The notes below the pieces were generated by a model that worked only from the letters and a program-made list of their open reading frames with translations, did not search any database and was not told where the DNA came from. A stretch of 64,000 nucleotides of DNA, from NCBI RefSeq assembly GCF_030068615.1, contig NZ_JASJOC010000006.1:62001-126000 (forward strand), written 5' to 3'. Numbering within the stretch: the stretch's first letter is position 1; each line of letters begins with the position of its first letter. Position numbers and translations under genes: made by a program. This DNA comes from Halostagnicola sp. A-GB9-2. Lineage in GTDB: Archaea > Halobacteriota > Halobacteria > Halobacteriales > Natrialbaceae. Below, one piece after another: positions 49,010 through 54,401 of the stretch.

Positions 49010-49681
49010 TTACTCCATCTCGTCCTCGACGTTGACCGCGTCGTCGATTGCCCCGAGAAGCCGACTCGATCCGCTCTCTCCGGAGTAACTCCAGGAGACT
49101 TCTCCGTCTCCATCGATCACGATCGTCTCGGGCAAGCTCACGGCGTCGTAGTAATCGCTGGCCACACCGCTTTCGTCGATCCCGAGGAGCCACTCGCCGT
49201 CGGTTTCCGTCTCCCACCACTCGGCCAGTTCCTCGTCGGTATCCGCCGGTCCCCTCGTCCAGTCGTTAACCGTGAGAAACTGGACCGAATCCGTCGTCAC
49301 TTCGGCGAACGCCTCGGACATGTCGGAAACTTGCCCCTCGCTGGTCGGACATTGGGTTCTCGAAAAGCTGACGACGAGAATCGTGTCTTCCTCGGGAATC
49401 GTACTCTCCCCGCTCTCGCTCCCGCGGGCGTCGATCGTTCTGATATCGAACGGCGGACTCGGGTCGGAGCCGCTCGTCTCGCTTTCGGATCTGTCGTCGT
49501 CCGGATCCGAGTCCGAATCGTCGTCGAGACACCCGGCGAACGCCGTCAACACTCCTACTCCCACCGCCGTCGAAGCGCGGAGATACTGGCGACGAGCGAC
49601 ACCGGACCACCCACCGTTTCGAGATTGCGGGGATCGAGTGGCTCGCCCGCTCGAGTCTTTCGCCGGCCGATTCGGGTCCAT
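49010..49681 (-). CDS. Tat lipoprotein with redoxin-like domain and single cysteine
   Basis: The 223-residue protein begins with 29 polar residues, then ARRQYLRASTAVGVGVLTAF and a lipobox AGC with Cys51, so it is probably Tat-exported and lipid-anchored. An acidic Ser-rich linker follows. A thioredoxin/TlpA-like domain comes next (TILVVSFSRTQCPTSEGQ, then SLPETIVIDGDGEVSWSY), but the active site reads CPTS instead of CxxC, so it has only one redox cysteine. It might accept thiol adducts or act in copper or heme-related chemistry rather than in disulfide exchange. The ATG at 49681 gives the best signal peptide. It is divergent from the exonuclease gene. Confidence 0.78.
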   Translation of the reverse strand: MDPNRPAKDSSGRATRSPQSRNGGWSGVARRQYLRASTAVGVGVLTAFAGCLDDDSDSDPDDDRSESETSGSDPSPPFDIRTIDARGSESGESTIPEEDTILVVSFSRTQCPTSEGQVSDMSEAFAEVTTDSVQFLTVNDWTRGPADTDEELAEWWETETDGEWLLGIDESGVASDYYDAVSLPETIVIDGDGEVSWSYSGESGSSRLLGAIDDAVNVEDEME

Positions 49682-49863
49682 GTCGAAACATTGGCCCCGG
49701 CTGAAAAAAGCGTGCTGGAGAACGGCCGTTAGTCCAATGCTCAATCGCTCTGTTCGCGACGGCGGGCGCGAGACGGTCCACCCGGACTCGATATATACTG
49801 CCGGCTGTACGTCGTTCACAATTCTCGACGCCTCGGGGGTGCGAGAATCTTTCCATAGTTACA

Positions 49864-49881
49864 GTGAGAGTATACTTTCAC
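49864..49881 (+). promoter_or_regulatory. 18-base near-perfect palindrome over the TATA element of the exonuclease gene
   Basis: GTGAGAGTATACTTTCAC is symmetric except for one pair. Its centre AGTATACT is also TATA-like, 50 bases before the ATG at 49928. A repressor here would block the promoter of the exonuclease-helicase pair. No other copy was seen. Confidence 0.5.
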
Positions 49882-49927
49882 TCCGATCTCCAAACCCTCA
49901 TAGTTGCGGGCGGCCTTCCGACCACCG

Positions 49928-51547
49928 ATGCGTACTCGCGACGGCCCGCGCGTGCTCGTGCTCTCGCCATCCGTTCTCTCGAGTCGGTCGCTCACGGCCT
50001 TTCGAGACGCTCGAGCGTACTTCGAACCGGATTTCGTGTTGGTCCACGGTCCGGAACGCGCGCCGCAAGCGGACGCTCGAGCTCGACACGCGTTCGACGT
50101 TCCGGTCGTCCACCCGCCCCTGATGGACGCCGCTGAACAAGTTCAACGGCATTCGATTCGACAGGGGGAACCGGACCGCTATTCGCTCCTCATCGCTCGC
50201 TCCGCCGACGGGCTTGCGGACGCCGAACCGACCCTCGATCGACAGCTCGAGAACACGGATTCAGTCGCCGCCGTCGTCTGTGACGACGTGACGACGACGG
50301 TTCGGCCGACGGCGCTCGAGACCGACCTCTCCTATCGATCCCAACTGGCCGCGGCGCTTCCCGCCGGCGAGACGATGACCATCATGAGCGGCGGACTCGC
50401 CGCCGGATACGACGAGGTTTGGCGACTCGAGGCAGACACCGGTGCCGTGTTGGGAGTCGGAACCGAAGGGGATGACGCGATAACGACGCCACATCCGTCC
50501 ACCGAAACCGCCGTCGGCGTTCGAATCGTCGGAATCGGCCCTCGAGAGGGGTACGGAACGGCGGGATCGATTTCGGCGGTAACTCTCGGCTCCGCTGACC
50601 GGCCCGAATCCGGGACTGCAGATACTACCGAATCCGGGTTAGCCGACGTGACCGATGTCGAAACGCTCTCCGCGGACGCCTTCGGCCTCGAGGCCGTTTC
50701 CGGAATCGGACCGAAAACCGCCATCCGCCTCGAGAAGCAAGGCGTAACGACCAGAGCCGAACTCCTCGAGACGCCGATCGAGACGCTCTCGTCGATATCG
50801 GGTATTGGCCGCCAAACGGCACTGCGGATGCACCAGCAGGCGCGGGTGCTCGAATCAGGAGAACCGCGCCGCCTCTCGGACGAGCCGCTACCCGGCGGAA
50901 CGCACCCTGGGTCGCCGCTGTGTCTCGACATCGAAACCGACGGACTCTCGCCGACGATCATCTGGCAGATCGGCGTCTACGACCCCAATATCGATGAATA
51001 CCACGCGTTCGTCGAGCGATCGAGTCCGGAGGATCCCGGCCCAGTTCTCGAGCGCTTTTGCGACTGGCTGTTCGGGGTTCATCCCGATCGGGCGCTCCTG
51101 ACCTGGAACGGCTGGCGGTTCGATTACCGACACCTCGAGTCGTTTCTCAACCGATACGTTCCCAGATACGTCGACGCCTGGGACGGCGTGGCGAAGCTGG
51201 ATCTCTACGGCTGGGCCGTCGGCAACGAGAACGCGGTGCTTCCCGGTCGGACGAACACCCTCGAGGACGTCTCGGCGGCGCTCGAGTACGGAGGGTCGGA
51301 TACCGGTCTCGACGGCGCGCAGACGGCGGCGGCCTACCAGCGATTTATTCGAACCGGAACGGAACTCGAGTGGGATCGCCACGAGGCCTACTGCGAGGAC
51401 GATTGCCGGGCGCTGTGGCACGTTTACGAACAGCTTCGAACCGCCCCCAAACCCGCTGTGGACCAAACAACGGCGGCAAATGATGGGACCGCTTCGACAA
51501 ACGAATCGACGACCGCCGGCTCCCAGACCGGACTCGGTGATTTCTGA
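49928..51547 (+). CDS. HhH plus RNase H-like exonuclease (YprB/MrfB-like)
   Basis: The 539-residue protein has an N-terminal region of about 220 residues that I do not recognise, then two helix-hairpin-helix motifs (LEAVSGIGPKTAIRLEKQGV and LSSISGIGRQTALRMHQQA, near 250-300), then a DEDD-type RNase H-like exonuclease. Its acidic positions are CLDIETDGLSPTIIWQIGVY, LTWNGWRFDYRHLESF and AYCEDDCRALWHVYEQL. The downstream neighbour is a DUF1998 helicase, the same pairing as bacterial YprB/MrfB with YprA/MrfA, which repair mitomycin C damage in Bacillus subtilis. The start at 49928 follows the conserved MRTRDGPRVLVLSPS. The role here is inference. Confidence 0.82.
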   Translation: MRTRDGPRVLVLSPSVLSSRSLTAFRDARAYFEPDFVLVHGPERAPQADARARHAFDVPVVHPPLMDAAEQVQRHSIRQGEPDRYSLLIARSADGLADAEPTLDRQLENTDSVAAVVCDDVTTTVRPTALETDLSYRSQLAAALPAGETMTIMSGGLAAGYDEVWRLEADTGAVLGVGTEGDDAITTPHPSTETAVGVRIVGIGPREGYGTAGSISAVTLGSADRPESGTADTTESGLADVTDVETLSADAFGLEAVSGIGPKTAIRLEKQGVTTRAELLETPIETLSSISGIGRQTALRMHQQARVLESGEPRRLSDEPLPGGTHPGSPLCLDIETDGLSPTIIWQIGVYDPNIDEYHAFVERSSPEDPGPVLERFCDWLFGVHPDRALLTWNGWRFDYRHLESFLNRYVPRYVDAWDGVAKLDLYGWAVGNENAVLPGRTNTLEDVSAALEYGGSDTGLDGAQTAAAYQRFIRTGTELEWDRHEAYCEDDCRALWHVYEQLRTAPKPAVDQTTAANDGTASTNESTTAGSQTGLGDF

Positions 51548-51629
51548 TGGCAGGCCCGCGAAGCCGACTAATGCCGAGCGCGAGAGCACCGGATCACGCG
51601 AGTAATCGAACCGACGAGTATGCGAACCC

Positions 51630-54401
51630 ATGACTAACAGCCAACAGGAAACGGACGCGTCGCCCCTCGAGGGTCCGATAACCGGTGACAAGTTGCTCGA
51701 GAGCTTCCCGCGGTATCGCGACCCCGAGGATGTAACCGTCCTCGAGCGGCCGGGACGCGAGGCCGAGACGGTATCGAACGAGGAGCTACTCGAGCCCGAA
51801 CTCGCCGGCCCGCTGGAACACGACTGTTACGTCCATCAGGTTGAAGCCCTCGAGGCGCTCGAGCGCGGCGAAAACGTCTGCGTCGCGACGAGTACGTCCT
51901 CCGGCAAAACGCGGATCTACGCCCTCCAGATCGCCCGGAACTACCTCGAGGCCAGACGTCGGTCAGCGGAGAACGAACGCGGCGACTCGACGGCCTACGT
52001 TCTGTATCCGACGAAAGCCCTCTCGAGGGACCAGGAGCGCGAACTCAACGACTTTTACGACCGACTGGGACTCGACATCACGGTTCGAGTCTACGACGGA
52101 GATACCGAACGCGGAACCGAACGCCGGCAGATCCGCGAGGAGGCGGACGTGATTATCTCGAATTTCGCGGGCGTGAACACGTACCTCCACGACCACGACC
52201 GCTGGGCACGCTTTTTCTCCGCTTGCGACCTCGTCGTAATCGACGAGTCCCACACCTACACCGGCGTCCACGGCATGCACGTCGCTTGGATTCTCCGACG
52301 GCTCAGACGCGTCCTCGAGTACTACGGATCTGAGCCCCAGTTCGTCATGACGAGCGCGACGATCGGAAACCCCGGGGAGCACTCCGAGGGACTGATAGAC
52401 GAGCCGGTGACGGTGGTCGACGAGGACGGCTCCCCCAAGGGACCCCGCGATATCGTCCTCTGGAACCCGCCGCCGAGGGCGCGTGAGGACGGGAACGCCG
52501 GTTCCGAAGACGGCGGCGAACGCGCGGACGCCGTTCCGGATGAGGGCGAGGCTTCCGATGCCGTCGAAGGGGTCATAGAGCGCGTCCCAGCGACCGTCGA
52601 GTCGCCGAAGCTCCTCTCGCACCTCGCGTACCAGAACGCTCAGACGCTTCTGTTTACGCCCTCGAGAAAGCTCGCCGAACTCTCGGTCAAGCGAGCGAGC
52701 CAGCACCGACAGGACCGGCGTCGACACTACACGGACCCCGACAGGGGAAGCGCCATCGAACCGTACCACGCGGGTCACTCGAGACAGAAACGCCACGGAA
52801 CCGAACACCAGCTGAAAAACGGGTTGCTCGACGGCGTTGCGTCGACGAACGCCCTCGAACTCGGGATCAACGTGGGGGAGATGGACGCGACAGTCCAGAT
52901 GGGGTATCCTGGCCAGCGCCAGTCGTTCTGGCAACAGATCGGCCGTGCCGGCCGCGGGACGGATCGCGCGCTGTCGGTGCTCGTCGCCGAACACCGAACC
53001 CTCGATCAGTACGTCGTTTCGAATCCCGAATTCCTGCTCGAATCGGATGTCGAAGATGCCGTCGCGGACGTCGGCAACGACGCGGTCTTCGCCCAGCATT
53101 TGCTCTGTGCGGCCGACGAGCTCGCGATAGACGAACGGGACGCGGGTTCGTTCGCCGACCGCGAGCGACTTGAGCGCGCCCTCGAGATGTGGCGACGAGC
53201 GGGGAAGCTGACGGGGGTTCTCGAAACGGGCGTCTCCTACCGCGGACCGCCGCGTCCACAGTCGACGATTTCGCTGTACGCGACACGCGGCGAGGAGTAC
53301 GAGGTTCGACTCGCCGAAGGTGTCGACGAGAAACACGATCCGGAAATGGAGCCCCTCGCCCGCGAACGAGTGTACAGGGATTTCCACGAGGGAGCCGTCA
53401 GACTGCACGAAGGCCGGCAGTATGAGGTCTGTGAGGTGGTCCATGACGGTCCCCGCCCGCACGTTACGGTGCGGCCGACAGACGTGGACTACTACACGGT
53501 GACCCAGAGCGACGTGACGGTCCTCGATGCGACCTCCGAAGAGAGCCGCGGCATCGGCGACTTTACACTCCACTACGGTCGCGGCCGCGTCCTGGTGTAT
53601 CACGGCACTTACGACGAAGTCGGGGTCCACGGCGGGAAACGACGAGCGCAGGGTGTGCCGACCGACAACCCGCCGCTGTCGATGGACACCCAACTGTGCT
53701 GGCTCGAGGTCCCTCGGGAGGTCGAACGGGAACTCGTCGAGAAGTACCGCAACTTTTCGGTTCCCGATCTCGACTCGGAGCTCGCCGAAACTCCACACCT
53801 CGGCTACGCCGCCGGACTCCACGCCGCCGAGCACGCGACGATCGGCGTCGCGCCACTCGAGCTCATGCTCGATAAACGCGATCTGGGCGGGCTGGCGACC
53901 CTGACGATCGATTCGCATTTGGATCGCGGAGCTGGAGAGGAGTCGGCGGAGAGCGCCGACGGCACCACCCAGTCAGCGGCGCCGGGCGACAACGAGCCGA
54001 AAAACCTCGCCGCCGCCAGGGCGACGGTTCGGGCGACCGCGGCCGAACTCGAGCGGACGCCCTCGAGCGGCTGGTTTATTTACGACGGCATCGAGGGTGG
54101 ACTGGGTTTCTCGAAGGCAATCTACGAGAACTACGAAACCGTCGCACGGCGCGCACGAGAACACATCGCCGACTGCGAGTGCGGACGAGTCGACGGCTGT
54201 CCCGCTTGCGTGATGGACGAACAGTGTGGAAACGACAACCAGCCGCTGCACCGCGGGGCCGCTATCGACGTTCTGGACGCGTTACTCGAAGCCGAAGACA
54301 GCGAGGGGCTCGAGGTGTCGGGTTCGGAGGCTACTGCAGAGCCGGACGAGGAGACGAGTGCACAAAGCGAGGGCAGGCGGCCGCCGCTGTTCTACTCGTA
54401 G
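51630..54401 (+). CDS. DEAD/DEAH helicase with DUF1998 zinc domain (YprA/MrfA-like)
   Basis: The 923-residue helicase has a Q-motif-like YVHQVEALEALERGENV, Walker A CVATSTSSGKTRIYAL (near 85), AYVLYPTKALSRDQ, Walker B VVIDESHTYTGVHG (DESH, near 203), a helicase C-terminal domain (TLLFTPSRKLAELSVKRA, then QSFWQQIGRAGRGTD) and an MrfA-type C-terminus with the zinc cysteines CECGRVDGCPACVMDEQCG (near 849-867). An acidic insert lies in the first domain at about 290-310. It follows the exonuclease gene by 82 bases on the same strand and probably acts with it in DNA repair. Confidence 0.9.
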   Translation: MTNSQQETDASPLEGPITGDKLLESFPRYRDPEDVTVLERPGREAETVSNEELLEPELAGPLEHDCYVHQVEALEALERGENVCVATSTSSGKTRIYALQIARNYLEARRRSAENERGDSTAYVLYPTKALSRDQERELNDFYDRLGLDITVRVYDGDTERGTERRQIREEADVIISNFAGVNTYLHDHDRWARFFSACDLVVIDESHTYTGVHGMHVAWILRRLRRVLEYYGSEPQFVMTSATIGNPGEHSEGLIDEPVTVVDEDGSPKGPRDIVLWNPPPRAREDGNAGSEDGGERADAVPDEGEASDAVEGVIERVPATVESPKLLSHLAYQNAQTLLFTPSRKLAELSVKRASQHRQDRRRHYTDPDRGSAIEPYHAGHSRQKRHGTEHQLKNGLLDGVASTNALELGINVGEMDATVQMGYPGQRQSFWQQIGRAGRGTDRALSVLVAEHRTLDQYVVSNPEFLLESDVEDAVADVGNDAVFAQHLLCAADELAIDERDAGSFADRERLERALEMWRRAGKLTGVLETGVSYRGPPRPQSTISLYATRGEEYEVRLAEGVDEKHDPEMEPLARERVYRDFHEGAVRLHEGRQYEVCEVVHDGPRPHVTVRPTDVDYYTVTQSDVTVLDATSEESRGIGDFTLHYGRGRVLVYHGTYDEVGVHGGKRRAQGVPTDNPPLSMDTQLCWLEVPREVERELVEKYRNFSVPDLDSELAETPHLGYAAGLHAAEHATIGVAPLELMLDKRDLGGLATLTIDSHLDRGAGEESAESADGTTQSAAPGDNEPKNLAAARATVRATAAELERTPSSGWFIYDGIEGGLGFSKAIYENYETVARRAREHIADCECGRVDGCPACVMDEQCGNDNQPLHRGAAIDVLDALLEAEDSEGLEVSGSEATAEPDEETSAQSEGRRPPLFYS

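Follow-up and report, generated by a model that had tools for sequence, protein, structure and literature searches.

A conserved exonuclease-helicase gene pair

The window analyzed here, a stretch of 64,000 nucleotides from Halostagnicola sp. A-GB9-2, carries two consecutive genes on the forward strand. The first (49928..51547, +) codes for a predicted exonuclease of 539 residues with the Pfam domains HHH_5 and RNase_H_2, and the second (51630..54401, +, with an ATG start) for a 923-residue SF2 helicase of the MrfA/YprA type with a DUF1998/MZB region. The best start of the exonuclease gene is the ATG at 49928, with a possible TTG at 49904, and its stop at 51547 is separated from the helicase start by 82 bases. 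An earlier sequence-only reading of this DNA had described just such a DEDD exonuclease with two helix-hairpin-helix (HhH) motifs 82 bases before a DUF1998 helicase, and both the Pfam domains and the spacing agree with it. The pair is flanked on one side by an AhpC/TSA redoxin-like lipoprotein gene (49010-49819, -, between thyA and the exonuclease), thyA and DHFR, and on the other by DUF502 and purD (the identities of thyA, DHFR and purD being read from their sequences). In several relatives, unlike in the window, thyA is directly divergent from the exonuclease gene.

Homologs of the exonuclease are present in 112 of 292 haloarchaeal genomes, in a total of 121 copies, and every one of these 121 is directly followed on the same strand by the helicase, at a median distance of 73 nt between the matched regions. 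A search by identity class, which covered the haloarchaea, recovered 122 helicases of the MrfA class, the only one without a partner being a truncated gene with an internal stop. The evolutionary distances of the two proteins are tightly correlated (Mantel r 0.947; permutation maximum 0.12, or 0.124 to three digits). Thus, the two genes co-evolve and their pairing is far beyond chance, which bears out the co-conservation on which the earlier reading had staked its case. As the pair is patchily distributed, it does not constitute an essential repair system. In Halostagnicola sp. A56 (loci L008, L022 and L135) the N- and C-terminal parts of the exonuclease lie in separate open frames, reflecting a frameshift or an assembly error.

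The helicase displays the Pfam domains DEAD, Helicase_C and MZB/DUF1998, the last with 56 bits against a cut-off of 24, and its best match among solved sequences is the B. subtilis YprA/MrfA (6znp; e-value = 2.8e-89). In a comparison of its AF2 model (pLDDT 77) with the MrfA structures, 6znp was again the best match (e-value = 6.4e-59; TM 0.78 on the target; 881 columns). The MZB/DUF1998 zinc region (54057..54227, +; Pfam MZB at aa 810-861) contains Cys849, 851, 857, 860 and 866, which are invariant in our alignment A3 and recur in the same pattern in all 25 homologs checked; the Walker A GKT is likewise found in 25 of 25, and the DE[SA]H motif in 23. By sequence, zinc cysteines and fold, this protein is an MrfA/YprA DUF1998 helicase. 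The DUF1998 zinc fold, the absence of which on modeling had been named as grounds for abandoning the earlier reading, is recovered in a model that matches MrfA over its length.

Architecture of the exonuclease and its C-terminal motif

The exonuclease (AF2 pLDDT 83) can be divided into an N-terminal domain (aa 1-250; 49928..50677, +), a tandem HhH segment (aa 254-306; 50687..50845, +), where the HHH_5 match spans both motifs (e-value = 1.7e-12), and a DEDD domain (aa 331-503; 50918..51436, +) recognized by RNase_H_2 (e-value = 5e-27) and by Foldseek matches to DnaQ-type exonucleases, with a predicted 3'-5' polarity. Residues D334, E336, D399, Y488 and D492 are invariant in alignments A1 and A2. 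The catalytic residues of MrfB include the histidine of the DEDDh type (PMC11194089). At the corresponding place, four residues before the last aspartate, the haloarchaeal proteins have the invariant Y488, which sets them apart from the DEDDh type; this assignment presumes that the last helix aligns without gaps, and hhalign instead places H485 opposite the MrfB histidine at the cost of a 3-residue gap, though H485 varies, two homologs having F or L there.

Searched directly against the solved MrfB (8un9), a profile of the exonuclease domain gave an e-value of only 0.016. The profile of the haloarchaeal exonuclease, on the other hand, matched MrfB homologs from methanogens of the same phylum across both the HhH and the exonuclease regions (hhalign probability 99.1%, e-value = 5.5e-19), and these in turn match 8un9 with an e-value of 1e-38, contain the HNxxD motif, are 331-487 aa long and, in 12 of 14 loci, have a DUF1998-type helicase encoded immediately downstream. 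By this chain of profile matches, firm through the methanogens, we classify the exonuclease as a homolog of MrfB, but not as a plain MrfB. An origin from the TM0106/TIGR03491 family, which shares the combination of HhH and RNase_H_2, was also considered and rejected: the match (e-value = 4e-13) lies under the curated cut-off and none of 148 genomes of the phylum has a member above it, for which reasons homology to MrfB is preferred. The earlier description of the pair as MrfAB-like accordingly stands for the identity of the helicase and for the homology of the exonuclease, and has to be amended for the tyrosine in place of histidine, the extra N-terminal domain and the TPR domain, of which Pfam detects none in the exonuclease, its tail beyond aa 511 being disordered.

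The N-terminal domain is mostly confidently folded in the AF2 model. In the window protein it has no Pfam match, other homologs giving scattered weak ones, and a 32-member profile recovered no significant match among PDB sequences, in keeping with the earlier remark that these N-terminal residues resemble nothing known; it also did not match methanogen MrfB. In alignment A4 only M1, Y161 and G202 are invariant, and there is no conserved catalytic set. Foldseek matches of the whole exonuclease model appear to be dominated by the exonuclease domain, and the hit at rank 17 is a viral protein named metallophosphoesterase. This might weakly hint at a dead metallophosphoesterase-type fold, on which we do not rely.

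The last residues of the protein, QTGLGDF (aa 533-539; 51524..51544, +), form a candidate PIP box, in which Q533 and L536 are invariant in alignment A1. The pattern Q-x-x-[LI]-x-x-[FW] is found in 109 of 110 distinct homologs, compared to a mean of 0.09 in shuffled sequences, and within two residues of the C-terminus in every intact one, the sole exception being an interrupted sequence. The linker before it is unconserved and the tail of the model has low pLDDT. While PIP boxes are short motifs, and the canonical form (QxxhxxFF) has two aromatic residues, the one seen here has a single aromatic, as does NreA of the same genus, which ends in QSSLDAF, and the single-aromatic form is therefore normal in Halostagnicola. 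In Haloferax the PIP motif of NreA binds PCNA and is needed for mitomycin C repair (PMC4929162). Across the genome the ending Q..L.DF recurs in a single other open frame, that of a Hel308-like helicase (L195; identified from its sequence) whose terminal QASLGDF is likely to be a PIP box too. The exonuclease should dock on PCNA via its C-terminus. This predicted docking would explain recruitment better than the N-terminal domain, to which the earlier reading had tentatively assigned that role, although a contact of the latter with the helicase is still possible.

The promoter and a UV-response motif

Upstream of the exonuclease gene lies a 20-bp palindrome, AGTGAGAGTATACTTTCACT, with one mismatched pair (49863..49882, either strand). 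The near-perfect palindrome noted earlier at the promoter is thus present, and the start of 49864 given for the finding marks it rather than the gene, which begins with the ATG at 49928. An alignment of 27 promoters shows a different element to be conserved. Neither the two nearest relatives nor other genera have the left half of the palindrome, which is not conserved even within the genus, and what is retained is the right half together with a putative BRE/TATA-like promoter core, CCAAACCCTCATAGTT (49890..49905, +). The conserved block reads CACTTTCAC-Y-CCGGTGTCCAAACCCTCTTT-TC, followed by the ATG at a leaderless distance: ATAGTT starts 28 nt before the exonuclease ATG, as for a leaderless transcript.

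This block includes the UV-B motif TTTCACTTTCA, an 11-bp element described in the abstract of a study on Halobacterium NRC-1 as occurring about 50 nt before radA1, top6B, vng17 and vng280 (PMC2556686). In the relatives it takes the form TTCACTTTCAC, which is present with at most one mismatch in 17 of 27 thyA-linked promoters, in most of them exactly 57 nt from the ATG, whereas shuffled sequences give 0-1. In the window the same position (49871..49881, +; 57 nt before the ATG) is occupied by TATACTTTCAC, with 2 mismatches out of 11, and the two nearest relatives have 3; clades of the pair that are not linked to thyA mostly do without the motif. In 25 haloarchaeal genomes TTCACTTTCACYNC was recovered 93 times, versus 9 times for the reversed control. 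Among the loci from which the motif gene set was drawn (L197-L199 and L213-L301), the TTCACTTTCAC element is found at a fixed spacing upstream of lhr, radA, uvrA, top6B, orc1/cdc6, mre11 and PCNA (the last in one genome), with a more variable spacing before RPA; in the window genome itself it is found 58 nt before radA and 68 nt before uvrA. It also precedes two small orphan families, of 76 aa (L267) and of 86 aa with CxxC motifs (L230). A composite promoter pattern was tried as a genome-wide signal and discarded, being not enriched over its control, unlike the shorter TTCACTTTCAC core.

The earlier proposal of damage-responsive control is therefore backed by the UV-B motif of the relatives, with the palindrome dropping out as its element. 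As uvrA was not UV-induced in Halobacterium (PMC1224876), presence of the motif need not mean induction, and because the copy in the window species is eroded, its presumed induction there may have been lost or altered. Hence, control by the UV-B motif in this species is uncertain.

Function of the pair and comparison with known systems

Because the two genes are always paired, and because the exonuclease has a predicted clamp tag and most related species a UV-response sequence at the promoter, the pair is probably a DNA-damage repair unit. We consider the sequence evidence for the identities, the pairing, the PIP box and the promoter motif strong, and favor with reasonable though not high confidence the interpretation that this two-gene operon codes for a PCNA-tethered lesion-excision module of the MrfAB type belonging to a haloarchaeal damage regulon. 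By this model, the DUF1998 helicase would unwind DNA at the lesion, the exonuclease would bind DNA through its tandem HhH and be held at the site by its C-terminal PIP box docked on PCNA, presumably in contact with the helicase, and would degrade the exposed strand from the 3' end, after which PCNA could support synthesis across the gap. For Natrialbaceae, the model places the operon in a UV/damage regulon marked by TTTCACTTTCA approximately 57 nt before the start codon.

Alternatively, the pair might remodel stalled forks or trim double-strand ends for RadA while tethered to PCNA, comparable to Hel308 or Hef-HAN. The genome's sole other protein with a Q..L.DF end, the Hel308-like helicase, would fit such a role, as would the recombination and replication genes of the motif set (radA, mre11, RPA, orc1/cdc6 and top6B) and the occurrence of tandem HhH in fork and recombination enzymes; however, mitomycin C lesions are the target of MrfA and MrfB, the closest characterized relatives (PMC11194089), and uvrA has the same UV-B motif. 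We accordingly regard fork or end processing as rather unlikely.

The gene contexts of the homologs raise a further alternative, namely that the pair defends against foreign DNA, like the systems of the second branch of YprA helicases (DISARM, Druantia, ARMADA). Several homologous pairs are borne on plasmids next to defence-like genes. In L144-L147 the gene immediately upstream of the pair codes for a Piwi-domain protein (Argonaute) of 869 aa. In L169, L171, L173, L174 and L179 the exonuclease is directly preceded by a gene for a protein of some 280 aa that looks Cas4/RecB-like by eye and, in the L171 copy, has no Pfam match. In L161 and L337, on plasmid or plasmid-like contigs, the pair is preceded by genes for a ThiF-type protein and a second DEAD-box helicase, the former with a weak JAB match and the latter of the DUF1998 type in L161. 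Other features of these loci include a DUF2797 gene before the Piwi-domain gene (L144), a distant Argonaute-like gene downstream on the opposite strand (L171 and L173) and ParA downstream of the pair (L337), and on plasmid PHS3 of Halobacterium salinarum R1 (L336), a tractable laboratory strain, the homologous pair OE_RS12870 and OE_RS12865 is followed by another ribonuclease H-like gene. For the plasmid-bearing clades with Argonaute, Cas4-like or ThiF-JAB neighbors a defence role is conceivable. One could even imagine, as a speculation to which we give little weight, that the PCNA-tethered DEDDy exonuclease and DUF1998 helicase form a haloarchaeal module deployed both in a chromosomal damage regulon and in such plasmid cassettes, so that the sliding clamp would connect repair with defence. 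The clade of the window pair, on the other hand, is chromosomal, monophyletic (support 100/95), thyA-linked in 26 loci with usable flanks and equipped with a UV-regulon promoter. Moreover, no DISARM, Druantia or BREX partner genes lie beside the pair in the window, the locus does not qualify as a YprA-based defence operon (DISARM, Druantia, ARMADA or BRIGADE), and the exonuclease matches no PADLOC family. A defence function is therefore unlikely for this clade, and as an explanation of the pair it appears distinctly improbable.

Least credible of all is that the palindrome acts as a repressor site specific to the operon, with a LexA-like logic: it is near-perfect, closely precedes the promoter core and, without mismatch, has a single occurrence in the genome, but palindromes this good are expected by chance in DNA of this size (it is one of 11 of the same quality in the window, which is richer in them than first-order Markov copies, with a mean of 5.6 and a range of 3-9), and this chance count together with the non-conservation of the left half speaks against an operator and leaves the palindrome probably incidental save for its right half.

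For the favored excision module, the predicted clamp-docking peptide bears on a question raised in Bacillus, where the way in which MrfAB reaches damage is open and the role of the TPR domain of MrfB is unknown (PMC11194089). A conserved peptide of this kind on the archaeal exonuclease would offer a testable answer to recruitment for one lineage and would tie excision to PCNA. Through the promoter link, in turn, the reach of the haloarchaeal UV motif grows beyond its four published genes to a wider group concerned with repair and replication, and the missing regulator becomes something that can be searched for.

In comparison with known systems, the helicase shares with B. subtilis MrfA (YprA) the fold over its whole length, the helicase motifs, the zinc cysteines and the possession of an exonuclease partner gene, but the haloarchaeal exonuclease gene comes first and the haloarchaeal helicase has long acidic inserts. 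With the DEDDh protein MrfB (YprB) of the same organism the exonuclease shares the DEDD domain and the pairing with a helicase, and differs from it in having Tyr488 for the catalytic histidine, no TPR seen, an N-terminal domain of 250 residues, a double HhH and the C-terminal PIP box. The MrfAB-like pairs of methanogens (L314-L327) have the same gene order, with an HhH-like segment joined to the exonuclease and the helicase downstream in the 12 of 14 loci noted above, but their MrfB-like proteins are of the DEDDh type, 331-393 aa long in most cases, and lack both the N-terminal domain and the PIP box. NreA, the haloarchaeal PCNA-binding protein of mitomycin repair, likewise closes with a PIP box of this form, although it is an unrelated protein that works with UvrABC (PMC4929162). 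Finally, the promoters of the UV-B motif genes of Halobacterium NRC-1 described in the abstract of PMC2556686 carry the motif seen in the relatives' promoters, likewise spaced from the start codon, and to the four genes named there the present analysis adds the exonuclease-helicase pair, uvrA, mre11, lhr, RPA and orc1/cdc6.
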